From a virus, in the IMG/VR virus record IMGVR_UViG_3300032282_004406, positions 1 through 30,660 of that record: 30,660 nt of DNA, one strand, 5' to 3'. The position numbers and the translations under genes are program-made. Positions 1-27,668 of the stretch are shown in pieces. Below the pieces are notes generated by a model. It was not told the origin of the DNA. It ran no database searches and saw only the letters and a program-made list of their open reading frames with translations. Positions within the stretch are counted from its first letter, which is position 1. Each line of letters begins with the position of its first letter.

Positions 1-51
1 AAAATGATTATAAAAGATGTTAATAACTATATAGCAATTTATAAAGAGTAA
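1..51 (+). CDS. C-terminal end of an upstream gene (partial)
   Basis: The frame is open from the first base to a TAA at 49-51 and gives 16 residues ending in NNYIAIYKE. No start is visible, so this is probably the tail of a plus-strand gene that begins outside the window. The composition (Asn, Ile, Lys, Tyr) fits neighbouring genes, but 16 codons is too short to exclude chance. It is followed at once by the palindrome at 51-88. Confidence 0.35.
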   Translation, partial: KMIIKDVNNYIAIYKE

Positions 52-88
52 TGTAATTATTAATATATATTTGTATTAATAATTACAT
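51..88. repeat. 15-bp perfect inverted repeat with 8-base loop
   Basis: The left arm at 51-65 (atgtaattattaata) is the exact reverse complement of the right arm at 74-88, and the loop is tatatttg at 66-73. The arms are almost entirely A+T but show no mismatch. The element fills most of the 47-base gap between the upstream stop and the ATG at 99. It could be an RNA hairpin ending the upstream transcript (though no U-run follows), an operator for a dimeric regulator, or a boundary of the endonuclease insertion. Its role is not known. Confidence 0.8.
66..73 (+). promoter_or_regulatory. Possible Bacteroidetes -7 promoter element TATATTTG
   Basis: The 8-base loop of the palindrome matches the Bacteroidetes primary-sigma -7 consensus TAnnTTTG exactly and lies 26 bases before the ATG at 99. 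A proper -33 TTTG about 19-21 bases upstream is not present. If real, it would drive the GIY-YIG gene and the small genes after it, and the flanking arms could act as an operator. In such A+T-rich DNA a chance match is plausible. Confidence 0.3.
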
Positions 89-98
89 ACTTACTAAA

Positions 99-755
99 AT
101 GAAAGCTAGAAAAATTCATAAAAATATATCAGGTATATATTTAATTTTAAATATTAAAAATGGTAAAGTTTATGTTGGAAAATCACATAATATTTATAAT
201 AGAATAACAGAGCATATTTCTAGATTAAAAAATAATATTTGTGAAAATGAATATTTACAAAATTCATTTAATAAATATGGAAAAGAATCTTTTGATTACT
301 CTATTCTTGAAATTTGTAATGATGAAGATATTGTTTCTAAAAAAGAACTTTTTTGGATGAAAAAATTAAATTCTTTAGATAGAAATTTTGGATATAATCT
401 TAGATCTGATTCTGATTCTAAAATGATTGTTCATAAACTTACTAGTTTAAAAATATCTAAAAGATTAAAAAAAGAATGGAGTTTAGGTATAAGAAAAGAT
501 CATGGTAAAAAATTATCAAATAATTGGAATAAAACACCAAATAGAAAAATAGAACAATCAAAAATTATGTCTAAAAATTTAACTAAATATCATTATTTTA
601 TAATTAACAAATTAGATATTTCAAAAGATTTAATAATGAATTATCAAGATTTAATAAATATGGGATTAAAATCTGCAATGTCATCATTTTATAGAAAAAA
701 ATCAAATATTATTAATATCAAAGGATATACTATTAAAAGAGTAAATTTAAAATAA
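99..755 (+). CDS. GIY-YIG homing endonuclease (free-standing)
   Basis: This 218-residue protein is a site-specific DNA nuclease of the GIY-YIG family, the kind that spreads its own gene into allelic sites in related phages. Visible motifs are GIY at residues 12-14, YVG at 25-27, the catalytic Arg at R35, the metal-binding Glu at E83 in KELFW, and FGYN near 97-100. Residues from about 108 on are Lys/Asn-rich, with a NUMOD-like stretch (SLKISKRLKKEW) that probably binds DNA. The gene is visibly more A+T-rich than the genes after it, which fits recent acquisition. Its stop is one base before the next ATG (TAATATG). No split gene flanks it, so it appears free-standing rather than intron-encoded. 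Confidence 0.9.
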   Translation: MKARKIHKNISGIYLILNIKNGKVYVGKSHNIYNRITEHISRLKNNICENEYLQNSFNKYGKESFDYSILEICNDEDIVSKKELFWMKKLNSLDRNFGYNLRSDSDSKMIVHKLTSLKISKRLKKEWSLGIRKDHGKKLSNNWNKTPNRKIEQSKIMSKNLTKYHYFIINKLDISKDLIMNYQDLINMGLKSAMSSFYRKKSNIINIKGYTIKRVNLK

Positions 756-756
756 T

Positions 757-1248
757 ATGAAAGTAAAATGTAAAGGTCTTTTTGAATGGGAAGACTTACA
801 AGATCACAAGTATACTCATTTACACAAAAATAAAAGTTTTTTAATTATACCAAAAGCTTTATATGCATTCTTTGTAGATAACACCTTACCAGAACAATTC
901 CTTCAGCAGAATAGAAATATATATGACTATTGTGGGGGAGTAAAAATCAAAGGTAACTGGGAATTTCAACAAGTGTGTGTAGATAAAGAAGGTGTCCATA
1001 GAAAAACCTTGCAACATACTTTAAGATATTATGTTTCTAATAAGGGATGTAAAGTATATAAAGTAAATAAAGCAGACAAAAGAGAAATTCAAGTTGAAGC
1101 AGGAAAATGGATGCAGGAAATATTTAACACATATGTAGAGAAACCTTGGAAAGACTATGATGTAAATGATTCCTACTACTTAGAAACAATCTATAAAGAA
1201 ATAGATAGTATAACACATAAAAAAACACAATTAAATTTATTTGAATAA
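757..1248 (+). CDS. Early-region protein with C-terminal clamp-binding-like motif
   Basis: This 163-residue protein is not recognised as a named family. It is basic and rich in aromatic residues (Trp, Tyr, Phe) over its whole length, with no signal peptide or membrane segment. The last six residues, QLNLFE, follow a short polar linker (THKKT) and match the bacterial sliding-clamp-binding pentapeptide QL[SD]LF closely. Such motifs typically sit at a flexible C-terminus, as here, so a role at the replication fork or in DNA repair with the host DnaN clamp is a reasonable inference, but no catalytic domain can be seen. The start is the ATG one base after the endonuclease stop, so translation is probably coupled. 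Coding potential is clear; function is open. Confidence 0.8.
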   Translation: MKVKCKGLFEWEDLQDHKYTHLHKNKSFLIIPKALYAFFVDNTLPEQFLQQNRNIYDYCGGVKIKGNWEFQQVCVDKEGVHRKTLQHTLRYYVSNKGCKVYKVNKADKREIQVEAGKWMQEIFNTYVEKPWKDYDVNDSYYLETIYKEIDSITHKKTQLNLFE

Positions 1249-1249
1249 A

Positions 1250-1423
1250 ATGGATAATCAAAATAATACCCAGGAAAGCTCTCCTAAAGAAAAGGAGAGC
1301 CTACCTAATAAGGTTCCAGTTAATGAACCTGAAAAAATACAAATCAAAATAGGAAAGCAAATGGATCTTGAAGAGTTAATCAAGATACTAGAGGAAGAAG
1401 ATAATAAACATTTAAACTTATAA
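1250..1423 (+). CDS. Small acidic protein, unknown function
   Basis: This is a 57-residue protein starting at ATG 1250, one base after the previous stop. A TTG at 1241 would add three residues and overlap the preceding gene, but ATG is preferred. The N-terminal third is polar and probably disordered (Asn, Gln, Ser, Glu, Lys). The C-terminal part, MDLEELIKILEEEDNKH, is likely an acidic amphipathic helix. No family is recognised. A perfect 8-bp hairpin (1278-1300) lies in its early codons. The tight spacing on both sides suggests co-translation with the neighbouring early genes. The acidic helix could suit a small inhibitor or adaptor, but that is speculation. Confidence 0.65.
   Translation: MDNQNNTQESSPKEKESLPNKVPVNEPEKIQIKIGKQMDLEELIKILEEEDNKHLNL
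1278..1300 (+). repeat. 8-bp perfect hairpin inside a coding region
   Basis: gctctcct at 1278-1285 pairs perfectly with aggagagc at 1293-1300 around the loop aaagaaa. It is unusually G+C-rich for this genome and starts 28 bases after the ATG of the 57-residue gene. No U-run follows, so it is not a standard terminator. It may slow translation, stabilise mRNA or be a chance effect of Ser/Pro and Lys/Glu codons. The right arm contains AGGAGA, but no start codon is suitably placed for it to serve as a ribosome-binding site. Confidence 0.55.
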
Positions 1424-7892: not shown

Positions 7893-10800
7893 TTAGTAAC
7901 ATTCTTTTAATTTATTAATTATATCAGTAGGGTTTTTGGTCTTATTATTTAAGGCTTGATTGATGTAATCATAAGCTTCTTGTTGAGTTACACCATGTTT
8001 TAAAGCAAAGTTAGATAAAATTTCTCTCTTTCTATCTATTGTAAATTCAGGCATAGTTTTAAAATCTAAAGCTTCAGTAGATGGTTGCTTATCTCTTAAC
8101 TCTTCTCTTACTTCCATAAGTAATCTTGGGAACTCAGTACCCCATTTACTTTTATCTTGTGTATGAGTAAGGGTAGCATTACCTGTAGCTAATAGTTTTT
8201 GAAGAGCTGTTGGATTTTGTTCAAAAGAATTTTTTAACAAAGCTTTCATTATTTCTGAATTATTGTTATTCCAATCTTTTATTTCTAATCCTTCAATAGT
8301 TTGACCTAATTGTTTAGCTTGACTACCTGTACTTTTTGAAAATTTATTTAATAAATTTATTTTTTCTTCATTAGAATATTTTTCTGAATAAAATATTTTA
8401 TAAGCTTGATATGCACCTTCTACTGTATTAAATACTAATACATTTCCAGTTATATCTTTATAAAGTTCTGATAAATCACCATCTTCTTTAAAAGGTCTAT
8501 TAGCAAAGTTGCTTAACTCAGCATTCTCTCCTGTACCTGCATAGATGTTAATCTTAGTATCTGGTCCAGGTAAGTTAGTAGATGGTTGAACTAGTTTAAA
8601 TTCTATTTGCCAAGCCTCATCTAATCTTGGCTTAACACTTCTATTAAAATATTCTTTAGACCATCCTTCTAATTTAGACCATTCTTCTGCAGTTTTACCT
8701 GAACCCTTAAGAGGAGTCAAGGCTTTTGTAACAACTACATCAACTTTTTTACCATCTTCTGATTCCCAAGTAATTATATCACCTACTTTAGCAGTTTTCC
8801 AGTAATCTAATTTACTTTCACTTTCATATCTAGTAGTAGCAGTTCTTTCTCCTTTAAGTATTGCATCAAAAGTAGTATTAGCTGTAACATCTTCTCTTTT
8901 ATTAGTACCATATACATAAGTCATTTTACCTTTAAAAGTATTTACAGGAGCTTTTGGTTGAGCAGATTGTACTCCAGTTTTAGATGGTTTAGTATCTTTT
9001 AATTTTAAGATAGCTATTCTGTTACCATCATTGTCTTTCCACTCCATTTTTGTACCAGTAGTTAATGAGATAATAGTATCTTTTGGAGTCACTAGGTAAT
9101 CTGCATCTCTATATCTTACTTTAACAGCTTTATTAAATCCTGGAGTTAAGTTAGCTTCAGCAAAAGATTTCTTAGAATTGACTCCTGTAGCATTAGGGTT
9201 ATAAACTTGCCATGTACCATTATCATTCTTTTTAATAACAATATAAGTTATACCATTATTTGCAACAAATCTACCTGGTTCAATAGGAAATTGACTAATA
9301 GTTTCTTTTTTAGGTTCTACTTCAGCTTTTTTATCATAAAAGTTTTTAGGAGAATCACCAAAACCTTCTGTAAATACTACTACATCATTTCCTGTGGCAA
9401 TAATTTTATTAATAATATCATTTATACCTAACTTAGCTTTGTTTATTTCATCAACTGTTACAATATTACTTAATTTATATAAATCAGCAGGAGATAATAA
9501 AAAGAATACTGAAGGGTTAGCTTCAATTAAATTATCTATTTGATTTTTACTAACAGAATATACTCTACCGTCTTTTGTATAAGTGTTACTTAGATTAAAT
9601 ATACCAGTAGGTATATCATTATTACCTATTATTCTCTCAATAAAAGGTTGTTCATAAATATTATCTTCAGCATCAGGTAAATTAGAAATATCTACTTTTA
9701 ACTCAGGACCTCTTGATCTTAATTTTCTTTTACCAACAGAATTTTCTCTTTCAAATAATTTCTTTAATCCATTTAATATATTATCAGTATCTGTTGTTTC
9801 AAGTTTATTAATAAACTTTTCTGAAGCTTTTTGCATTATTAAACTATAGTCCATAAGACTATCTATCTTATTAGCATAAGGCATTATAGATGCTAATGAA
9901 AACTCACTAGAATCCATACCTGTTTGTAAGAAAGAATAAATTGGTAATCTAGCAAAGAAATCACTGATATAAGCATTAGCTTTACCATTATTATCTTTTT
10001 TACCAGTTAATTTAATTTCTCCTTTATTAGCAAGGTCTATCCACTGTTTATTATATTCATTAATTAAACCTTCATCAAGATTAGAATAGTTTTTTAATTG
10101 AAAATTTAAAATATTTTTATAATCAGTATCATTAGGTATACCTTTAGGCATAAATTGTTTTAGAATAGAATACTGTGTAGAATCACTAATTTCAGGATAG
10201 TTTGTAATAATATCCATTAATTCTTGGGCTACAGTATTATCACCAGATCTAAATAATTGCCAGATATTATAAGTATTAGTAAGAGCTTTATTAGCTAACA
10301 TATTTTCATATGTAGCAGTATTTAATCTTGATAAATATTCATCTCTACTTTCTCCATCATTTTGGCCATATTTTTTATTAGAGTTTTTTACTCTTTCTCT
10401 TCTAGTAATAAACTCTTTAGTATCTTTTACATCTTCTAGAGACATTCTTTTTCTTAAATACTCTCTTTCTAAACCAAATTCAATAAAATCAGATCTTAAT
10501 TTTTCATTAGGTGTTAAAACATTATTAACACCTACTAATAAAGGAAATGCTTGACCATTAATTGAAGCTAATTCTTTAGCATTATAAGAATCAGGATCAT
10601 TATTAGTTTCTAAATATAATCCTTTATCAAAGTCTTTATTAAGTTGTTCTAAATATACTGGATCAATAACATCACCTTTGTATTTAGTATCTCCTGATTT
10701 ATAGTTTTTTAATTCATTAGCAAAGATATATTGAGAAATAAAGTTTTTAAATCTTGTAATATAAGTATCAAGATCATAACCTGTTGCTTTTTTTGCTTTA

Positions 10801-13800
10801 CCTATTGCTTTTCTATCATTAAATGTAGTAATAAGAAAGTTATTTACTTGAGCATCATCTCTTAATTTAAACATTCTATTAAATAATCTTCTAGCAAAAT
10901 CTTGTATAAAGAATGGAGATATAATACTATTTGTAGATAATTTATCAATAGTTTCTGTCTCTAGGGTGTTAGTATCCATAAGACCTCTTACCTCTTCAAT
11001 TTTAGCTTGAGCTGAAAATAAAGTAGTAGTATTCTTAGTATCAGGATTCATTGCTTTTTTCATAGCATCATAATCCTCAATAAGCTTTTCTACATATAAG
11101 TACTCTAAGAACCCTGTTACTTGTTCTCTGTCAGTATAATCTAAACTTTTTTGTGCAATTTTCTCAAGTGTTTCTTTAGTAAAGTCATTAGGGTTGGACA
11201 TTTCTTCTAAAGCTACTTGTAAACCATAAATATTATCTTTATTTCTTAAAGCTTTTTCTGAAAGTCCTATTTTATTTAACATTTCTCCAGCTACATCATA
11301 TGATTTTGTTATAGAAGGCATTAAGTTTGCTAGAATAGCTTTTCCATTTGCTTTATCTTTAACATATTGTCTAGTCATAGGATTAGAAACTAAAAAGGCA
11401 ATGTGTTCAAAAGGAGTTCCAGCTTCTAATAAAAATAAAAATTTAGGTACAACTTCAGGATTACCTTGTAAGTAAGCTACCCAGGCACCTTTACCTGCAT
11501 CCACAAAACCATTCATTAATTGGTTAATTACATCAGCAATAGAGTTGATACCATCTGCATCCATAATATCTGATAATGATATAGCACCATCAAGTTTATT
11601 ATGAGGTAGATTTAAAGTAATATTAACCTCAACAGGTGCTTCTTTCCATTTAATTCCTGATTTTGTTTTAGTTTCAACTTGACCCATAATTGATAAAGTC
11701 TTTTTCATCTTAGAGCCGGCCATATTAAGTAAATTGTTAATATAGTTATCCACAGCTGCAATACCTAAAGATTCTTTACTACTATAGTTTTCTTGGTGTT
11801 TTTTGATATTGTAATTTTGAGTATAAATCTTGGTAGAACTAATACCTTTTTTATACATTTTTTTACCAGTTTTAACAGACTTAGTATAATCACTTTCATT
11901 ATCAGCCTTTTGTTGGTAATCTTTTATTTTATCAGCAGTAGGTTTAACTAAGTTAGTATCATTAGGAGACATTAATGAAGCAGCAAGATAAGGTAATTGT
12001 AATATGTTAACCATATCCTGTATTAACTTATTTTGGATACCACCTAACATATTATTTTTATTATCATTTAAATCAGCTCTTTCTTTGTATACATCACTAA
12101 GTTCTGATTTTTCATCATATAATTTACTTAAAGTATCTTCTACTGATTCTATATCTTCTAAAGTAACTCCTTTAATTTTATTTTTATAAATTTTATAAGC
12201 ATTAGGTATAAAGTTTTTTACATATTCTTCTATACCAGGATCACTCATAATTTTTATAATAACTTTGCTTTTATTACTAGTAAGATTATTTAAAAGTTCT
12301 GGATCAATGTTTTGTGTTTTTGATTTTGTAATAATAGCTTTTCTAAAATTATTAAGTTTAAAGTTAATATCTAACCATTTAATACTTTTTTGATCTTTTA
12401 ATGTATTAATAAACTCTTTAGTAGCAGTTAATTTATCAAACTTTTGTTTAAGTTCTTCTTCTTTTTCATCAATATCTTCCTCAGTCATCTTTTCCATCAA
12501 TTTACCATTTCTAGTAATAAATGGCATGTAGGTAGTCATCTTATCAACGTCAAAGTCAGTACCTGATTTAGCTACAATTTCTGCAGGAATAATAATTACA
12601 GGACCTGCTGAAGGATGTAAAAACTCAGCTACTTCACCAAACTCCATAGAGTTATGACCTTGTACAGGAATCCTTACACCAGTAAGTCTTAGTTTCTTAT
12701 AATTATCATCATGATTTCTCCAGATATCTAACCTAAGCATTTCATTTAATCTATCTAAACTTGCATCTACATCAATTTCTCTTGGTTCCCCTTTTTCTTT
12801 AGCTTTATATACAGCAATTGATTTACCAGAATTTACATATTCTCCACTTTCATCTTTAACAAAATAATCAGTTTGAAATAAACCTTCATCCATTTTATTA
12901 AGAGCTCTTTTAAACATGAATCCTATAGTGTTGTTTATACCATCAGCTACATAAGATTTTAATCCATTAGTACCTCCAAAATCATCATATTTTGCTATTT
13001 CTTCAGGAGTAGCATTTTTAAACTTTGCAGTTTGCATAAAAGCTGAAGATAATTCTACTAATGGTTCACCCTTTAATTTAGGTTTAACAATTCTATTATT
13101 AACAATTGCCATAATCATTTTTTCAAATCTGGCTGCTAATGGACTAATACTTAAATCTACTTTATCAAAGTTTGAGGTTGCATTAAAAATCTCTCTTTCA
13201 TGTGTACTAAATCCTTGTTTTGCAAGTTCTTTATCTAAAAACTTTAACATTGATTGAAGTTTTACATCATCAACTTTTTCAGCATATAAATCATCTTCTG
13301 TCCACCCTAATTCTTCAAGTAATTCTTTTTTCTTAAATTGTACAAACTCATCTATACTTCCTTTAAACTCTTCTGAATAATCATGAAATTGACTAACCAA
13401 TCTTTTATATGGTTCATTTTTCCAAGCTTCTACAGCTTCTTCTTTAGTTGAAAAGTTATTCTTTTCAATGTAGTCCATAGGTACTCCATTTTTATATAAA
13501 AGAGAAGTAATTAATTTTCTTAATTGACTAGAAAAAGTGGATTGATCTTTAAAATATCTATTAACAGATGTTTGATTTTTTAAATAAGCTATATAAATAA
13601 CATTTGGTGTAAACTTAATTTCTTCTAATGGTTTAATGTTATCTGTAGTACCATTATAAACTAAATCACCTTTACTAGTAGGACTAGATTTTATAAAAGA
13701 TCTTTTAGATCCTGACTCAAATAAAGCATAATCTATATTTTGAGAAATCATAGCTTTATGTAAAGTATCAGCTGCAGGAAATTTTTTAATTACACTTGGT

Positions 13801-16800
13801 ATTAAAGGAAATAAAGAAAACTTATGAAAGGCTTGTACAGGAATTCTTCCCTTTTCTGTAGCAAGTGCTCCATTATATTGAAGTTTATATACCGGAAACA
13901 TATCAGTAAGTTCAGATGCAGATATTTCTTCTCCATTTACAACTTTCCAAAATAAGTCTTCTTGAGCATTAGACCATGTTCCCTCTGCTCTTTTTAATAT
14001 TCTATAAGTATCAAAAGTCATCCAACCTTGACCATCTCCATCTTTAATATCAACAAATGATGTCATTTTACCACCATCATAAAGATCATTATAATTACCT
14101 TCTTCATCAACAGAATCACTACCTGGTAAACCTGTATCAGGATTAACACCATATAAAGCAATATTTAATTCATCACCATTTATACCTTTTTTAATAAAAT
14201 CATTTTTAAAAAGATTTTTATACATATCAAAATACACAGAAGTAACTTTACTTTCTTGAATAATTGCAGTATTAAGAGTAGGACCATATGTTCTTACTTG
14301 TTTTTCTCCAATAACTTTATCATCTATAAGTTTTTGTTCATAAGGTCTTCCTACTTTAGTATCAATAAAGATTTTAGTTAGTTTATCTACTGGAAATACA
14401 GTACCACCAGATTGAGAACCTGTAGCTCTTTTAGTCATATCATCTTTAGTATGATCAAATTGAAAACCATCTCCTTGTAAAAATACAGTAGTTTCAGTCT
14501 TATGAATAAAGTTATTTATCATATAAGATCTGATAGCTGCTTTTTTAATATTTAAATCTTTATCTGTAACATCTTTTCCATAAATAGCATTTAATTCTTT
14601 TTTACCAGTTAAATCTTTTAATATAAGATCTGTTAATGTAGAAGGCATAACACTACCTTCTCCAAAAATAGGATCAAATAAATCTTTATAGTAATCCTCT
14701 TCAATTTTATCAAAATATGTTAATATTTCTTTATCAATCTTTTCTTTTAACTTAGGATTATTAGCTAATAATGTAGTTAAATTACCTACTTTATTTAACT
14801 CATCATAAGTTTCTTTAGATTTTAATGTTTCTTTAAGAGTACCTGTTTCTTCATCTAAAATCTCATCAAAAATATCAAACTCAGTTCCTCTTTCAAATCC
14901 TTTCATATTATTATAATAAGCAGGATCTGCTTTAACCATTGCAATTCTTCTAATTTCACCCTCTAATTTAGGGTATAACATCTTTAATACTTCTTGCATT
15001 GGGTCAATTCCCATAATGGATTTACCATTTTTATCTGTTATAAAAGCAACAGTATCAACATATAAATTTTTATTTATTTTATTATTATATGTTTTAATAT
15101 AATTAAGTTTTATTGCAAAGTTTGAACTCTTATCACCTGGTTGAATACCTTCCATATAACCACCACCAAGAGTAGAAATAAATGTAGATAATACTTTATC
15201 TAAAAAGCCCATTTTAACAATTGATACACCATCACTTACAGTTTGGTCACCATAGCTTGTACCTGTTAAATCTCTATAATTAATATCATTATCTGAAATT
15301 TTTTGCCCTGTAACAGTAGAATATAATGATTTAAGCATTATTAATCCATTTGCTGATGGATTGCTTTCTGGATTAAAGCTATTCATATGTACAAACTCAG
15401 GATCATCAGAATATAAATCATTTATTTCAGTAGATTTTTTAATTCCATTAACTTTTTGAGTATCTGAGTTATTATATGCATGAGTTGATTTAAGATTATT
15501 ATCTGCAGTATACTTCATTGAACTTGCATATTCTATTGAATATGTTGCTTGTATTTCAGCTAACCTATTTACAGCAAAAGCATTTTTTTCTATTTTTGTA
15601 CCATTACTTAATACTCTATCTTTAGCTAAATAACTAATAATATTACTTATTTTTTTAGCATCTTCATCATTACTTTCCTGTGTTTTACCAATAGCATTTG
15701 CTATAAAATTAACATCACTTGGTGTAAGGATATCTCTAATTTCAGAAGTATCATCTATGTATAAACCAATGCTATTTAAAAATGGTATATAATTTTCTTG
15801 AGTAACAGTATAAGTACTTTTATTTTCAGTGTTAGTACCTTTAATCAAATATCTATTTACAACATTATCTAAATTAATGTAATTAACATTATCTATTTTA
15901 TTAGTAAAATCATCTTTTTCTTTTTGTTGAAATAATAAAGGCCAGTCTGTGTTTACAATTTTTTGATAATCAGCACTTGTCTTACCAACTTTTATTTCAA
16001 CTTTTCCTGTTTTATTATCTATTTTAATAGTATTAGATACTAAATCAATTTTATGTAAATTTGTAGATTGAATAAACTTCATCCATAAATCACCAACAGT
16101 ACTACCTTCTCTAAACATTATAGCTAATGATTCTTCTGGACTTACTTTTTCTTTATTTTTAGTTTGTTGTACATATATCTTACTAAGAAGTTGTTTAAAT
16201 AAAGGAGATACTTTTTCACCTGCTTCTGCAAGTTTATTATATAAACCCATTACAGAAGTTTCACCTGAAGCTTTATCCATTAATACTCTCCAGAAAGGTA
16301 AGAACTCTATAGGTTCTTTAAATCCTAGTTCATTTAATTCAAACTCACCATCTTTTTTTTGTTTAGTTAAACTTTTTATTAAATATAAAACCATTTCATC
16401 AGCAAGCTTTTCTGAAGCTACACCATTGATAGGCATGTCAAAACTAGTAGATAATTCCTGTTGAGCTTTATCATCAGTTTCTTCATAATCATCACTATCT
16501 TTTTCTTCTATTAACTTGAATGTAGAAAATAAATCTTTAAATGTACTGTTGTTTCTATGAAAAGCTACTAATGATGTTTCTGCAGATTCTCCAGCCAAAG
16601 CTTTATTAATATCACCAAATACTTCTTCATTTACAGCTTTTGTTAATAAAGTAATTTTATTAGTGAGAATAGTGATTGACTGCTCATCTTCAGCAGGTAT
16701 CCTATTTCTTTCAGATACTAACTCATTTATTCTATCATTTAAAACTTTCTTAGCTTTATTATAAACAGTAGTAAGAGCTTTTCTACTTGAAAATATTTTA

Positions 16801-19463
16801 GTAGCAGCACTAAACTCATTTTTTTGTTGAATTCTTTCTGTTACAAAATCAGATAATATACCATCTATAGTTCTAGTTAATAACAAACCTTCTGATATAC
16901 TAATATTATTTTCACCATTTTCAGTTACAATACCACCACTATTTAGTAAAGCAAACTCTGCATTGTTTAAATTTGGTGAGTAGGGTAACAGATCTTTAGA
17001 ATCTTTAGCAGTATATAATTTATTAAACATGTCATTTAAGACACTTTCAGAACCTGGATTAGAATATATAGAAGTACCTCCTACTAATGCTTTTAATGCT
17101 CTCCATATTCTATCAAATAACCTACCTAATACAGTGTTTTTTTCAGACTTAGTATTAAATTTACCATTATTCATAGCATATTTTCTAAATTCTTCTGCTA
17201 TGAATTCTTCTAATAATACCCTATCTGATCTTTTATTAAAATCAAGATCTTTAAAATTAACTTTAACCTTTTCAAAAGTTACAGAACCTGGACCTACAAT
17301 TCTTTTTACAACCTCAAAGCTACCTTTAAGTTTACTTACATCACTATATAAAGCTGTTCTTTGATCTTTAGTTAAATATACTTGACTAAATGCATGCCAA
17401 GCCTCATGATAAACCTGAGTAAAACTTGCTCCTTTATATAAAGTAATGACAGAACCACTGAAAGTAGCCCATGCATCTGAATTTACAACATTTCTTAATA
17501 GGTTTAAATTAAAAAGAGGTTTACCATTCTCATCAACTTCTTTAGACAAAGCTGATTCATTTTTCCACCAATCTTCAGCTTTAACATTTTGTTTATTTGT
17601 TGCAGAGTTTTCTATTAACTTAGAAGATTTAAGATCATCAAAAGCATCTTCTTGTTCACTATTAGTAACAGGAATATTTTGTTCTTTTACAATAGCTCTA
17701 GTTTCATTTACTTCTTTATTAACTTCTTCCTGAGTTAAAATTGGTTCAAAAGTAAGATACCCATTATTAACTACAGGATATTCAGAACTTTTATCTAAAG
17801 GGACTCTAGGTGTAAGTTTACTAAAAATAAAAGGTTTATATTCTAATTCTTCTGTACTTTGAATTTTATAACCAGTTTCTGTTGATTCAATATTATGTTT
17901 AGTAAACTGTTGTGCTATTAAAAGTTTATCATTAAAGTGAATATAAACATTATCAGCAAGAAAGTTTCTAATCATTTCTTTAGCTACTTCTTTATTTTCT
18001 AATGGTACATTAGTGTTATTAAGAACAATATAAAGTTTTTGACCTTTATCTACATTAATACCAATAGAATAAGGTAATGCTGTAGGATTTTCTTCATTAA
18101 ACTTTTTTGTAAGATTAATAAACTGACCTACATAATCTACTTTTTGTCTATCAGTTAAACCTAAATCTTCTGTAAGAACATTTACTATATTATCTAATAA
18201 ATCAGGAGCTTGTTCACCAATTTTTTTTGTATTTTTTAATGTTGTATAGTCTTTAATAGTGTTAAATTTAACAGCTGGTATATTATCAGTAATACCTTTT
18301 ATAACTTTTGGTACATAAGTTAAACTAGAGGGGTCAAATGAATTTTCATTAAACTGTGATAAAGTACCCTCTGCTAATTTTTTATTTTCAGTTGTTAAAG
18401 TATCTGTATTTACAGCTACCCCAATAGATCCACCAGTTATATTAACTAAAATAGGACCATTTTTTAACTGTGTTTTTAAAGCAATAAGTTCTGCACCTTG
18501 TTTTTTAACTTTTTCATCAACATTTTTTAATATTTCATCTCTTTCTGCCTGAGGTAAATCTTCAGTTTGAGCTTTAATACTACTTATAATTTTAGAATCA
18601 GTTTTAGGATTAACTGCTTTTAAAGCAGAATATAAAGGAATACCACCTTTATCTCTATCAGTAATTTTACCAGTTATTGGATCAAAGTACATGATGTTAC
18701 CTTGATTATCTGTTACTACTAATACTGGTACATTTCTAGTTAACCATACACCTCTGTTAGGTCTAAGTTTACTATCATCTGTGTCTATGTCTCTTTCAAG
18801 CATTAACTTTCCTCTGAAACCTTTATGACCATCATATTCTACTTCTGTAAAATCTTGGTCAGCATCTTTTCTAGCTAATAAAAGTCTAGATCTCATATCT
18901 TGATAAAAGATTTGATCCGGATCTCTTACATTAATAATAGGTACAACTTTACCATCTATTTTTTCTGTAGCAGATGTCTGATCAGTTGTTGAGTTATATG
19001 TATCATTTGATAGGACATTATCTACAGCTAACTCAGAAGAACCCTCAGATTTAAGATAAATCTTATTAGCTTCAGCAGGCTGTTCATTAATAACCTTTTC
19101 AAGTTCCTCAACATTTGTAGGTGTAATACCAAGCATTGTAGCAACTGCTGCAATTTTATCTTCAGCTTTTTTTAATTTAGAAATTTCTTTAAGTAATTCA
19201 GTAGGATTATATCCTTTTTCTACAAACTCTAATTCATCATATTCTTTGTTATTTTTTATAATATCATATATCATTTGAGGTACATGATAAGCTATACCTA
19301 ATGCTTGATTAAGATCACCACTTTCATCTATTGTATCTTGTTTTATAGTATTAACTATATCAGTATATGAAAATTTAGGATTTTTAAAATTCTCTTCTAT
19401 AAGAGCATTTACATAATTTTCAAGATTTTCTTTTAAATTATTTTCACTTAAGTTACAAACCAT
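7893..19463 (-). CDS. Giant crAss-like virion RNA polymerase with zincin, ASCH and NADAR domains
   Basis: This single 3856-residue frame appears to be the injected DNA-dependent RNA polymerase of crAss-like phages, which transcribes early genes. Order of parts: an N-terminal region; a zinc-protease motif HEAWH at 686-690 with a likely third ligand in EEFIAE at 752-757; a long middle region; a double-psi beta-barrel segment with RIPVQG (2264-2269) leading to SGTDFDVDK, where DFDVD (2303-2307) is the Mg-binding DxDxD loop shared with the phi14:2 gp66 and YonO polymerases; a further helical region to about 3380; a beta-rich segment (about 3390-3490); an ASCH domain (about 3520-3622); and a NADAR domain (about 3638-3789). 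In the prototype crAssphage the corresponding region is divided among several genes. The frame has no break over 11.6 kb. It starts at ATG 19463, five bases after the preceding stop. The protease part could cleave the polyprotein; that is inference. Confidence 0.88.
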   Translation of the reverse strand: MVCNLSENNLKENLENYVNALIEENFKNPKFSYTDIVNTIKQDTIDESGDLNQALGIAYHVPQMIYDIIKNNKEYDELEFVEKGYNPTELLKEISKLKKAEDKIAAVATMLGITPTNVEELEKVINEQPAEANKIYLKSEGSSELAVDNVLSNDTYNSTTDQTSATEKIDGKVVPIINVRDPDQIFYQDMRSRLLLARKDADQDFTEVEYDGHKGFRGKLMLERDIDTDDSKLRPNRGVWLTRNVPVLVVTDNQGNIMYFDPITGKITDRDKGGIPLYSALKAVNPKTDSKIISSIKAQTEDLPQAERDEILKNVDEKVKKQGAELIALKTQLKNGPILVNITGGSIGVAVNTDTLTTENKKLAEGTLSQFNENSFDPSSLTYVPKVIKGITDNIPAVKFNTIKDYTTLKNTKKIGEQAPDLLDNIVNVLTEDLGLTDRQKVDYVGQFINLTKKFNEENPTALPYSIGINVDKGQKLYIVLNNTNVPLENKEVAKEMIRNFLADNVYIHFNDKLLIAQQFTKHNIESTETGYKIQSTEELEYKPFIFSKLTPRVPLDKSSEYPVVNNGYLTFEPILTQEEVNKEVNETRAIVKEQNIPVTNSEQEDAFDDLKSSKLIENSATNKQNVKAEDWWKNESALSKEVDENGKPLFNLNLLRNVVNSDAWATFSGSVITLYKGASFTQVYHEAWHAFSQVYLTKDQRTALYSDVSKLKGSFEVVKRIVGPGSVTFEKVKVNFKDLDFNKRSDRVLLEEFIAEEFRKYAMNNGKFNTKSEKNTVLGRLFDRIWRALKALVGGTSIYSNPGSESVLNDMFNKLYTAKDSKDLLPYSPNLNNAEFALLNSGGIVTENGENNISISEGLLLTRTIDGILSDFVTERIQQKNEFSAATKIFSSRKALTTVYNKAKKVLNDRINELVSERNRIPAEDEQSITILTNKITLLTKAVNEEVFGDINKALAGESAETSLVAFHRNNSTFKDLFSTFKLIEEKDSDDYEETDDKAQQELSTSFDMPINGVASEKLADEMVLYLIKSLTKQKKDGEFELNELGFKEPIEFLPFWRVLMDKASGETSVMGLYNKLAEAGEKVSPLFKQLLSKIYVQQTKNKEKVSPEESLAIMFREGSTVGDLWMKFIQSTNLHKIDLVSNTIKIDNKTGKVEIKVGKTSADYQKIVNTDWPLLFQQKEKDDFTNKIDNVNYINLDNVVNRYLIKGTNTENKSTYTVTQENYIPFLNSIGLYIDDTSEIRDILTPSDVNFIANAIGKTQESNDEDAKKISNIISYLAKDRVLSNGTKIEKNAFAVNRLAEIQATYSIEYASSMKYTADNNLKSTHAYNNSDTQKVNGIKKSTEINDLYSDDPEFVHMNSFNPESNPSANGLIMLKSLYSTVTGQKISDNDINYRDLTGTSYGDQTVSDGVSIVKMGFLDKVLSTFISTLGGGYMEGIQPGDKSSNFAIKLNYIKTYNNKINKNLYVDTVAFITDKNGKSIMGIDPMQEVLKMLYPKLEGEIRRIAMVKADPAYYNNMKGFERGTEFDIFDEILDEETGTLKETLKSKETYDELNKVGNLTTLLANNPKLKEKIDKEILTYFDKIEEDYYKDLFDPIFGEGSVMPSTLTDLILKDLTGKKELNAIYGKDVTDKDLNIKKAAIRSYMINNFIHKTETTVFLQGDGFQFDHTKDDMTKRATGSQSGGTVFPVDKLTKIFIDTKVGRPYEQKLIDDKVIGEKQVRTYGPTLNTAIIQESKVTSVYFDMYKNLFKNDFIKKGINGDELNIALYGVNPDTGLPGSDSVDEEGNYNDLYDGGKMTSFVDIKDGDGQGWMTFDTYRILKRAEGTWSNAQEDLFWKVVNGEEISASELTDMFPVYKLQYNGALATEKGRIPVQAFHKFSLFPLIPSVIKKFPAADTLHKAMISQNIDYALFESGSKRSFIKSSPTSKGDLVYNGTTDNIKPLEEIKFTPNVIYIAYLKNQTSVNRYFKDQSTFSSQLRKLITSLLYKNGVPMDYIEKNNFSTKEEAVEAWKNEPYKRLVSQFHDYSEEFKGSIDEFVQFKKKELLEELGWTEDDLYAEKVDDVKLQSMLKFLDKELAKQGFSTHEREIFNATSNFDKVDLSISPLAARFEKMIMAIVNNRIVKPKLKGEPLVELSSAFMQTAKFKNATPEEIAKYDDFGGTNGLKSYVADGINNTIGFMFKRALNKMDEGLFQTDYFVKDESGEYVNSGKSIAVYKAKEKGEPREIDVDASLDRLNEMLRLDIWRNHDDNYKKLRLTGVRIPVQGHNSMEFGEVAEFLHPSAGPVIIIPAEIVAKSGTDFDVDKMTTYMPFITRNGKLMEKMTEEDIDEKEEELKQKFDKLTATKEFINTLKDQKSIKWLDINFKLNNFRKAIITKSKTQNIDPELLNNLTSNKSKVIIKIMSDPGIEEYVKNFIPNAYKIYKNKIKGVTLEDIESVEDTLSKLYDEKSELSDVYKERADLNDNKNNMLGGIQNKLIQDMVNILQLPYLAASLMSPNDTNLVKPTADKIKDYQQKADNESDYTKSVKTGKKMYKKGISSTKIYTQNYNIKKHQENYSSKESLGIAAVDNYINNLLNMAGSKMKKTLSIMGQVETKTKSGIKWKEAPVEVNITLNLPHNKLDGAISLSDIMDADGINSIADVINQLMNGFVDAGKGAWVAYLQGNPEVVPKFLFLLEAGTPFEHIAFLVSNPMTRQYVKDKANGKAILANLMPSITKSYDVAGEMLNKIGLSEKALRNKDNIYGLQVALEEMSNPNDFTKETLEKIAQKSLDYTDREQVTGFLEYLYVEKLIEDYDAMKKAMNPDTKNTTTLFSAQAKIEEVRGLMDTNTLETETIDKLSTNSIISPFFIQDFARRLFNRMFKLRDDAQVNNFLITTFNDRKAIGKAKKATGYDLDTYITRFKNFISQYIFANELKNYKSGDTKYKGDVIDPVYLEQLNKDFDKGLYLETNNDPDSYNAKELASINGQAFPLLVGVNNVLTPNEKLRSDFIEFGLEREYLRKRMSLEDVKDTKEFITRRERVKNSNKKYGQNDGESRDEYLSRLNTATYENMLANKALTNTYNIWQLFRSGDNTVAQELMDIITNYPEISDSTQYSILKQFMPKGIPNDTDYKNILNFQLKNYSNLDEGLINEYNKQWIDLANKGEIKLTGKKDNNGKANAYISDFFARLPIYSFLQTGMDSSEFSLASIMPYANKIDSLMDYSLIMQKASEKFINKLETTDTDNILNGLKKLFERENSVGKRKLRSRGPELKVDISNLPDAEDNIYEQPFIERIIGNNDIPTGIFNLSNTYTKDGRVYSVSKNQIDNLIEANPSVFFLLSPADLYKLSNIVTVDEINKAKLGINDIINKIIATGNDVVVFTEGFGDSPKNFYDKKAEVEPKKETISQFPIEPGRFVANNGITYIVIKKNDNGTWQVYNPNATGVNSKKSFAEANLTPGFNKAVKVRYRDADYLVTPKDTIISLTTGTKMEWKDNDGNRIAILKLKDTKPSKTGVQSAQPKAPVNTFKGKMTYVYGTNKREDVTANTTFDAILKGERTATTRYESESKLDYWKTAKVGDIITWESEDGKKVDVVVTKALTPLKGSGKTAEEWSKLEGWSKEYFNRSVKPRLDEAWQIEFKLVQPSTNLPGPDTKINIYAGTGENAELSNFANRPFKEDGDLSELYKDITGNVLVFNTVEGAYQAYKIFYSEKYSNEEKINLLNKFSKSTGSQAKQLGQTIEGLEIKDWNNNNSEIMKALLKNSFEQNPTALQKLLATGNATLTHTQDKSKWGTEFPRLLMEVREELRDKQPSTEALDFKTMPEFTIDRKREILSNFALKHGVTQQEAYDYINQALNNKTKNPTDIINKLKECY
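8097..8552 (-). other. NADAR (YbiA/DUF1768-like) domain of the giant polymerase protein
   Basis: These bases encode residues about 3638-3789. Diagnostic pieces are LSNFANRPF (3650-3658), VEGAYQAYK around Glu 3682, LLATGNATLTHT, and KWGTEFPRLLMEVREEL with Trp 3774. NADAR proteins are N-glycosidases: YbiA acts on riboflavin-pathway intermediates, and NADARs paired with DarT2 remove ADP-ribose from guanine in DNA. The key Glu and Trp positions are kept, so catalysis is plausible. Confidence 0.82.
8598..8906 (-). other. ASCH domain of the giant polymerase protein
   Basis: These bases encode residues about 3520-3622. FDAILKGERTATTRY matches the opening of ASCH domains (a G-K/E-R-T-x-T-x-R signature), followed by the strand KVGDIITWES and GWSKEYFNR before the closing WQIEFKL strand. 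ASCH domains have a PUA-like fold that binds RNA or modified nucleosides; E. coli YqfB hydrolyses N4-acetylcytidine. Whether this copy is a binder or an enzyme is unknown. Confidence 0.72.
12540..12674 (-). other. RNA polymerase double-psi beta-barrel catalytic segment (DFDVD)
   Basis: These bases encode residues 2264-2308. They run from RIPVQGHNSM through a Gly/Pro turn and the strand GPVIIIPAEIVAKSG to DFDVDK. The three Asp residues (2303, 2305, 2307) correspond to the Mg-coordinating loop of two-barrel RNA polymerases, and Lys 2308 follows. The conserved arrangement argues strongly for an active polymerase. Confidence 0.88.
17154..17471 (-). other. Zincin metallopeptidase-like domain of the giant polymerase protein
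   Basis: These bases encode residues about 665-770. VYHEAWHAFSQVY carries the zinc-binding HExxH (H686, E687, H690) and LLEEFIAEEFRKY 62 residues later supplies candidate third ligands (E753 or E757), the spacing of a gluzincin-type domain. Zincin domains are a known feature of this crAss-like protein set. A role in processing virion proteins or in opening the host envelope is inferred. Confidence 0.75.
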
Positions 19464-27029: not shown

Positions 27030-27668
27030 TTATAAATATTTATAGTTAGTATTATTAATTCGGGAACCTTGTAATTTATGTAAAAAAGTACTTCTTGGTA
27101 TACCAGATACTTTTATAGCTTCTATAGCTGATTCATATATTTTACCTGTAGTTATATTTATTACTTTTTTCATTTTATCTTTTCTAAGATTTTTCCAATC
27201 AACTTTTTTTAAAGATTGTATTTGCCTTTCTCTACCTTCTTTAGACATTTGTACTTCTTTTCTTCTTGCTATACATAATTCTGAAGGTTTTTTACCTTTA
27301 TTAATTATTCTTAATTTTTCTTTAGTACTTTCTGATTGACCAGCTTTACCATTAGGATCTGTAGATTTAATATTATATCCAAAATATTCATCTGTAGTTT
27401 TTAAAATTTTTACCCAATAATCTTCCATTAAACATAACTTATCCTTAGAACATTCTTCTATTACAGAAAAAATAAAATTACATTCTCCATATTTTAACCA
27501 GGCTTTTTGTAAATAATCATTTGGATGTTGTTTTTTATTAAGATCAGAACCATGACCTTTTAATCTAGCTCTAATATTTGAAGCATAGCCAATATATCTT
27601 TTTTGAGTTGTTATATTTAAAATTTGATAAATACCTGATTTTTCAGGAAGATATATGTATGTAGCCAT
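27030..27668 (-). CDS. GIY-YIG homing endonuclease inserted in the late operon
   Basis: This 212-residue protein has GIY at 12-14, YIG at 25-27, catalytic R35, Glu 82 in MEDYW, and FGYN near 97-100. It continues with a NUMOD3-type DNA-binding segment (GKAGQSESTKEKLRIINKGK, about 107-126) and a C-terminal NUMOD1-like helix-turn-helix (INITTGKIYESAIEAIKVSG). It has the same plan as the endonuclease at 99-755 but clearly different sequence, so the two are related rather than copies. It lies between two intact virion genes, with 71 A+T-rich bases (27669-27739) before it, the longest gap in the late block, and one base after it. This indicates a free-standing mobile gene that reads with the late genes. 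No promoter in the 71-base gap is convincing. Confidence 0.92.
   Translation of the reverse strand: MATYIYLPEKSGIYQILNITTQKRYIGYASNIRARLKGHGSDLNKKQHPNDYLQKAWLKYGECNFIFSVIEECSKDKLCLMEDYWVKILKTTDEYFGYNIKSTDPNGKAGQSESTKEKLRIINKGKKPSELCIARRKEVQMSKEGRERQIQSLKKVDWKNLRKDKMKKVINITTGKIYESAIEAIKVSGIPRSTFLHKLQGSRINNTNYKYL

Follow-up and report, generated by a model that had tools for sequence, protein, structure and literature searches.

Introduction

The closest described counterparts of the locus considered here come from T4-type phages. According to PMC2988022, the leaders of I-TevI, I-TevII, I-TevIII, segB and Aeh1 mobE follow a scheme in which the ribosome-binding site of the early read-through mRNA is hidden in a hairpin and mRNA transcribed from a late promoter is free of it; PMC3014915 agrees with this account of these leaders. 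For I-TevI, the former text adds an operator that resembles the homing site and overlaps the promoter, and by binding to which I-TevI represses itself. It also describes seg43(25) of Aeromonas phage 25, a Seg-like homing endonuclease gene (HEG) located where a family B DNA polymerase gene is split; a very stable hairpin directly precedes the ribosome-binding site without covering it, and the role of this hairpin is left open. Among the titles and abstract openings listed, with few subscription journals represented, we found no report of HEG control of this type in phages of Bacteroidota.

In this study we consider a palindrome near one end of a virus record of 30,660 bases (GC 28%), which was analysed as a whole and is called the window below. 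What it represents is most likely the hairpin control known from T4, here in a different phage group. More specifically, we propose that the palindrome is the leader of a HEG and acts as an I-TevI-like on/off switch, in which the hairpin blocks the read-through mRNA and an internal promoter gives a translatable mRNA; we would put the probability of this proposal at roughly 0.55.

A palindrome at the 5' border of a homing endonuclease insertion

The two arms of the palindrome at 51-88 (Table 1), each of 15 nt and 8 nt apart, are 100% complementary. No other perfect inverted repeat (loop 3-20) in the window exceeds 11 bp, and an arm length of 15 was reached in none of 100 dinucleotide shuffles of the window, among which the maximum was 13. 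The palindrome is thus a real, non-random feature, just as the first-pass annotation, made from the letters of the DNA, had described it: perfect over 15 bp and with a loop resembling a -7 promoter element. It lies 50 bp from the end of the linear record, and because the window is the entire record, the sequence 5' of base 1 is unreadable. That annotation had also suggested looking for the same palindrome elsewhere. No copy of the exact arms around any 8-nt loop was found in IMG/VR, in a search that possibly lacked the records nearest to the window's own, and within the window the arm sequence occurs two more times, each with 2 mismatches, where 1.5 matches are expected by chance; the idea that the palindrome belongs to a repeat family was accordingly dropped.

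Table 1. Coordinates of the features discussed in the text
Feature	Position	Strand	Basis or remark
End of N-terminal part of split family B DNA polymerase (KMIIKDVNNYIAIYKE*)	1..51	+	Translation; stop codon TAA 49-51
Presumed homing-site region in polymerase exon (AATAACTATATAGC)	22..35	+	13/14 positions match AAYAAYTAYATTGC
5' arm of palindrome	51..65	+	Inverted-repeat search; base 51 is the last base of the polymerase stop codon
Loop of palindrome (TATATTTG)	66..73	+	Exact TAHHTTTG, 8 nt
3' arm of palindrome	74..88	+	Inverted-repeat search; with 89-91 contains the homing-site copy
Homing-site copy in leader (AATAATTACATACT)	78-91	+	11/14 match
Free-standing GIY-YIG homing endonuclease gene (HEG), 218 aa	99..755	+	Pfam PF01541 E=4e-12; PHROGs homing endonuclease; alignments
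C-terminal part of split DNA polymerase, 163 aa	757..1248	+	phrog_1252 DNA polymerase, profile positions 512-656 of 663

The hairpin occupies the gap from the polymerase stop codon to the HEG start. A homing endonuclease has thus split a family B polymerase gene. The order of polymerase N-part, hairpin, HEG and polymerase C-part is common to the window and contig L005. The end of the N-part is homologous to the end of a 521-aa polymerase ORF in L005, and the C-part shares 52-74% identity with 80 polymerase relatives, kept of 454 confirmed in IMG/VR. With its catalytic domain present and the host gene intact in relatives, the inserted gene appears from its sequence to be a free-standing GIY-YIG homing endonuclease. 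The two-piece polymerase (window 1-1248) is split after the motif DVNNYIAIY, and we note the same free-standing split, with a HEG of the window's family, in Klebsiella phage KpTRp1 (L009) and Acinetobacter phage phiAB441 (L010).

At the insertion site, 73 of the 80 polymerase relatives were classed as uninterrupted and 7 as interrupted, one of the latter (L191) being by eye uninterrupted and merely beginning near its contig end. The longest perfect inverted repeat at the site measures only 4-8 bp in the 73 relatives classed as uninterrupted and the palindrome is absent from every one of them, so it came with the insertion. A comparison with relatives lacking the endonuclease, as well as the possibility that the palindrome marks an insertion border, had been raised in the first-pass annotation, and on both counts the outcome is clear: the palindrome stands exactly between polymerase N-part and HEG and marks the 5' border of the HEG insertion.

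Elsewhere in the window, a 3856-aa ORF (7893-19463, minus strand) has its only PHROGs match in its C-terminal 150 residues, to phrog_1017 (61.8 bits, function unknown), and two other large window proteins gave no tblastn match in phage records.

Free-standing and intron-borne relatives

A first scan of IMG/VR with the single HEG sequence confirmed no match, and a genome scan for HEGs gave 17 distant ones; the family comprises at least the members described here, among the matches listed in the IMG/VR scans. L005 and three further contigs with an identical leader have the same layout as the window; the endonuclease of L005 is 54% and its polymerase C-part 70% identical to those of the window. 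The L005 hairpin (TAGTTATTAA / TTAATAACTA) has 10 bp, and one of its pairs is changed on both sides relative to the window, this being the only such pair between the two. A second L005 stem of 14 bp carries the endonuclease AUG in its loop. The third free-standing member, L168/L169, whose endonuclease is 73% identical to that of L005, has a hairpin that by eye reaches 6 bp (opening cost, as defined below, 9.1). With perfect arms of 15 bp in the window and of 10 and 6 bp in its two nearest relatives, the 15-bp arms are special to the window's phage. A switch of early genes, by a repressor on the arms or by cruciform formation, as the first-pass annotation had proposed, found no support, because arm length varies in this way and because the element belongs to the HEG; it was dropped.

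Members of the HEG family also reside in group I introns at the same polymerase motif (L098, L099, L100, L103, L108, L117 and L128); six of them are 48-57% identical to the window HEG, L103, which is cut by its contig end, having been left out of the alignment. For L099, Rfam RF00028 was matched in two parts, one on either side of the endonuclease, scoring 45.2 and 23.5 bits (E 5e-10 and 0.002); neither reaches the gathering score of 50, a lower threshold having been used for L099 and not for the window; outside L099 the intron label and the splice points come from shared sequence read by eye. At the gathering score Rfam confirmed no HEG-bearing intron among 16 loci, three matches being other introns, and found no group I intron in the window or L005, at a threshold that also misses the HEG-interrupted introns of the relatives. 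A group I intron core in the window was dropped as a candidate.

We also observed stems in two other family members. In KpTRp1 (L009, 2400-2470) a stem CAAATCTCC/GGAGGTTTG would hide the endonuclease Shine-Dalgarno, the overall fold z being only -1.2. The flanks of the HEG-family member in L134 (400-430) gave no match to polymerase queries; its leader keeps the homing-site-like sequence discussed below, and a stem ATAATAAC/GTTATTAT reaches into the start codon, with an overall fold z of only -0.4.

Structure of the leader RNA

The window leader from -55 to +15 folds with a z of -6.4, matched by none of 300 shuffles and the lowest of 17 family leaders; over bases 1-160 z is -3.1, and 1 of 200 shuffles was equally good. 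The excess of structure extends to the family: the 17 HEG leaders (-55..+15) have a mean z of -2.2, compared with -0.11 for 122 other starts at the same loci (p=1.1e-5), nine lying below -1.5 and four (L132, L133, L134, L019) near zero or positive, without excess folding. In the -55..+15 fold the window stem closes six nt before the AUG, which is itself unpaired (0.99); folding of bases 1-160 places a weak downstream stem against it. Since the AUG is unpaired and the stem ends before it, a block would be steric and would not work by sequestration.

The cost of opening the region -20..+15 of the window HEG is 12.8-15.9 kcal/mol for transcripts beginning at 1, 40 or 51 and falls to 3.0 from 66 and to 1.3-1.4 kcal/mol from 74, 80 or 85, the value of 1.3 kcal/mol being partly trivial because any shortened transcript opens more easily. 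At the 12 other gene starts of the window the cost is 2.4-7.3 kcal/mol. The window HEG stands at the 93rd percentile among 159 mixed control starts, high and yet not unique, and 4.1% of 339 starts (ORFs of at least 200 aa in 136 AT-rich loci, HEGs included) cost as much or more to open. The mean opening cost is 11.7 for the 17 family leaders and 7.9 for the 159 controls (p=3e-4). By computation, the window shares one trait with leaders of the I-TevI type, a stable hairpin restricting the start region on read-through mRNA. The second GIY-YIG gene of the window (27030-27668, minus strand; PF01541), distant from the first on the tree, has no strong leader structure and an opening cost of 4.4.

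In the intron-borne leaders an outer helix is formed by TTTG and its neighbours with endonuclease codons 3-4, and an inner helix, which differs in L100, pairs the bases round the AUG (unpaired probability 0.00-0.09). When the seven intron-borne rows, without the window, are aligned, 92.1% of the cells of this common structure pair, compared with 40-51% when it is slid by 1-3 columns, and 4 of 20 pairs are changed on both sides in a compensatory manner. The shuffle statistics for these seven rows are all soft, the rows being related: the covariation score was reached in 0 of 500 shuffles and the percentage paired in 1 of 500, and by more ordinary measures the number of pairs changed on both sides was reached in 87 and that of pair types in 196 of 500. 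The TTTG in the window loop is homologous to the helix strand of these relatives; the window has GCT AGA in place of the codons that would partner it in an outer helix of the intron type.

The loop as a candidate promoter element

According to PMC6847099, the Flavobacterium -7 element is TAHHTTTG, with T at -12 and G at -5, and the -33 element is weak. The window loop matches this exactly and would set +1 at 78, inside the 3' arm, by a consensus that is that of Flavobacterium and may not be the host's. Of the elements of a Bacteroidota sigma promoter, the -7 TAHHTTTG is present (66-73) and the -33 TTTG is not, no TTG being found 17-23 nt upstream of the loop motif in the window. No Shine-Dalgarno-like motif precedes any of the 13 window starts, as expected for a Bacteroidota host.

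TAnnTTTG is not enriched window-wide (40 occurrences on both strands, 51.5 +/- 7.5 expected), and our claim of enrichment for TAHHTTTG is limited to HEG leaders. At AT-rich loci poor in Shine-Dalgarno motifs, TAHHTTTG lies within 45 nt upstream of 19 of 68 GIY-YIG starts as against 28 of 368 others (Fisher p=1e-5), in a count that includes ORFs running off contig ends and differs in its removal of duplicates from an earlier one (18 of 70 HEGs and 25 of 339 others, p=4e-5), both p-values being optimistic because the HEGs are related. For both counts the controls are mechanical ORFs of at least 120 aa, which surely include some that are not genes, a few HEG starts are wrongly placed, and a Shine-Dalgarno fraction >0.25 or GC >=40% had excluded a locus beforehand. 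Shuffled HEG leaders contained the element 2.8 times on average and at most 8 times in 300 rounds; at Shine-Dalgarno-rich loci it precedes 0 of 24 HEG starts and 3 of 142 others. Starts with the element are also costly to open in HEGs (12.4, compared with 9.2 for HEGs lacking it, 7.7 for other genes having it and 7.2 for other genes; p=2e-7 for 12.4 vs 7.2). It sits exactly at -12 in 8 of the 19 HEGs that carry it, among them the HEG of Flavobacterium phage Fpv1 (L015) with TATCTTTG; from this position the A of the AUG would be the first base of the message. As a separate observation, 28 of the 368 control starts at Shine-Dalgarno-poor phage loci carry the element and 8 of these have it exactly at -12, a peak before non-HEG ATGs that hints at leaderless messages in these phages generally. 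The AUG hairpin of L103 and that of L128 each have the element across the loop, its last two bases lying in the stem.

The foremost alternative to our proposal, which we hold to be rather unlikely, is that the hairpin works without a promoter, either blocking HEG translation or coupling it to that of the polymerase N-part, and that the -7 match of the loop is a by-product of AT-richness and the conserved TTTG. Coupling would come about through the polymerase stop codon, which touches or overlaps the 5' arm in both the window and L005; with the window stop codon at the base of that arm, the terminating ribosome would melt the stem. The by-product argument is strengthened by the place of TTTG as a conserved helix strand in the intron-borne relatives, by our estimate that about one TTTG in ten is preceded by TAHH in this base composition, and by the homologous loop of L005, which reads AAAATTTG, without the TA. 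It does not account for TAHHTTTG being enriched before related HEGs and coinciding there with costly start regions. We first took the conserved TTTG to be a helix strand only and not a promoter, and revised this after the enrichment test, because enrichment upstream of HEGs makes a promoter plausible again. Thus, the loop promoter of the first-pass annotation is, judged from sequence, plausible, in that the exact match and the family-level enrichment speak for it, and is called into question by the L005 loop and the second role of TTTG. The case in the window is weaker than that at the family level, also because in L005 and L168, the relatives nearest to the window, the -7 element is found at -12 and not in the homologous loop.

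The homing-site-like sequence

Group I introns of the relatives adjoin the codons of the presumed homing-site region, the splice point being set by eye. A sequence resembling this region (at least 11/14) is found in the 40 nt before 16 of 18 family HEG starts and before 2.4% of 782 others; four of the family members (L103, L108, L117, L128) had been found by a pattern for this very sequence, and the fraction is 12/14 without them. L009 (7; 12 within 60 nt) and L019 (10) are the misses, and what matches in L010 is the polymerase exon itself. The pattern matched 36 stretches, about half with a family HEG downstream. L009, L022, L023, L132 and L133 have a second copy of the sequence, 22 nt beyond that in the exon and directly in front of the HEG, resembling a target duplication, the exon copy of L009 being assigned by eye.

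These matches raise the further, quite unlikely possibility that the palindrome is mainly a DNA operator, in which case the endonuclease would bind the copy of its homing site in the 3' arm, as well as the inverted one in the 5' arm, and repress its own transcription. The frequency of the sequence before family HEGs and the self-repression of I-TevI through such an operator lend this some appeal. The window match of 11/14 is nevertheless the joint weakest of those that pass, the homing site is inferred and not mapped, the copy may be flank carried over with the insertion, and the intron-borne relatives have the copy without a perfect inverted partner.

Descent from an intron-borne gene

In a tree of 28 rows, with intron labels for 17 of the 28 taken from motifs seen by eye, the window pairs with L005 (84/84) and both belong to a set of six rows (97/97), four of them intron-borne, and the other six free-standing members lie in a different part. 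Because the window and L005 nest among intron-borne members, we infer that the window HEG descends from an intron-borne HEG. Most intron-borne leaders read AATTATTAA, a few bases, TTTG, then TTAAYAATTATATTGC within the stretch before the ATG, L128 lacking the first piece; that of the window reads AATTATTAA-TATATA-TTTG-TA-TTAATAATTACAT. The final piece is similar to the homing-site region of the polymerase, which in the window is AATAACTATATAGC. The 5' arm of the window aligns by eye with AATTATTAA, the place of the 5' strand of P8 in related group I introns. In L099 AATTATTAA directly follows the matched part of the intron model (positions 48-158), where P8 belongs, and its designation there as a P8 strand is our own assignment.

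One might then regard the palindrome as a fossil without present function, with arms that are complementary because of their origin, the 5' one a remnant of intron P8 and the 3' one copied from the target site. The tree and the alignment by eye of the leader with intron-borne leaders (AATTATTAA, TTTG, TTAATAATT) agree with such an origin, yet upkeep is suggested by its 15 perfect pairs, more than the homologous stems have in L005 and L168, and by a fold z lower than that of any other among the 17 leaders, and we consider this reading more unlikely still. Finally, an intrinsic transcription terminator or an assembly artefact, suggested by the closeness of the palindrome to the record end, is highly improbable, as no terminator-like site was found in window 1-1300 and no T run follows the stem, which led us to drop the terminator, and as L005 has the same layout with a homologous shorter hairpin, of a type carried by four contigs.

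The proposed switch and its known counterparts

Our preferred scenario, the on/off switch, would operate as follows. Read-through messages from the polymerase contain both arms, and by computation their hairpin folds, leaving about six unpaired bases before the AUG, which would block ribosomes. A host-type promoter with the loop as its -7 element might give rise to a second message beginning near base 78, midway along the 3' arm; such a short message could not form the hairpin and would be free for translation. In addition, and with less confidence, because the 3' arm copies part of the presumed homing site, binding of the endonuclease to this arm may lead to autorepression of the I-TevI kind.

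Quite tentatively, and aware that this is doubtful, one may extend the scenario to a general form of HEG control in phages of hosts without Shine-Dalgarno sequences, probably Bacteroidota, in which the structure hiding the start incorporates the host -7 element, often at -12, where this element gives a leaderless message free of structure. The window switch would then have been rebuilt after the HEG left its intron, the dead P8 strand becoming one arm and the homing-site copy the other. At the level of sequence, the locus offers a case of a HEG that has apparently left a group I intron, become free-standing at the same polymerase motif and kept its leader. If our proposal is correct, the T4 solution of a hairpin combined with an internal promoter arose with a different host sigma factor and no Shine-Dalgarno, and its having arisen in other phages points to strong selection for delayed HEG expression.

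How the locus stands among known systems can be summarized by three comparisons. The intron-borne HEGs share with the window the HEG family, the polymerase motif and a homologous leader; they differ in their intron location and in that their TTTG pairs with codons 3-4 and hides the AUG, which the codons of the window do not allow. The likeness to seg43(25), drawn from its description, lies in a HEG at a split family B polymerase with a stable hairpin just upstream. By analogy with the T4 I-TevI leader, the window in the proposed view would combine a hairpin on read-through mRNA, an internal promoter and a homing-site-like operator. Unlike that leader, the window has no Shine-Dalgarno to hide, its stem ends just before the AUG, and a candidate host-type -7 element takes the place of the T4 late promoter.
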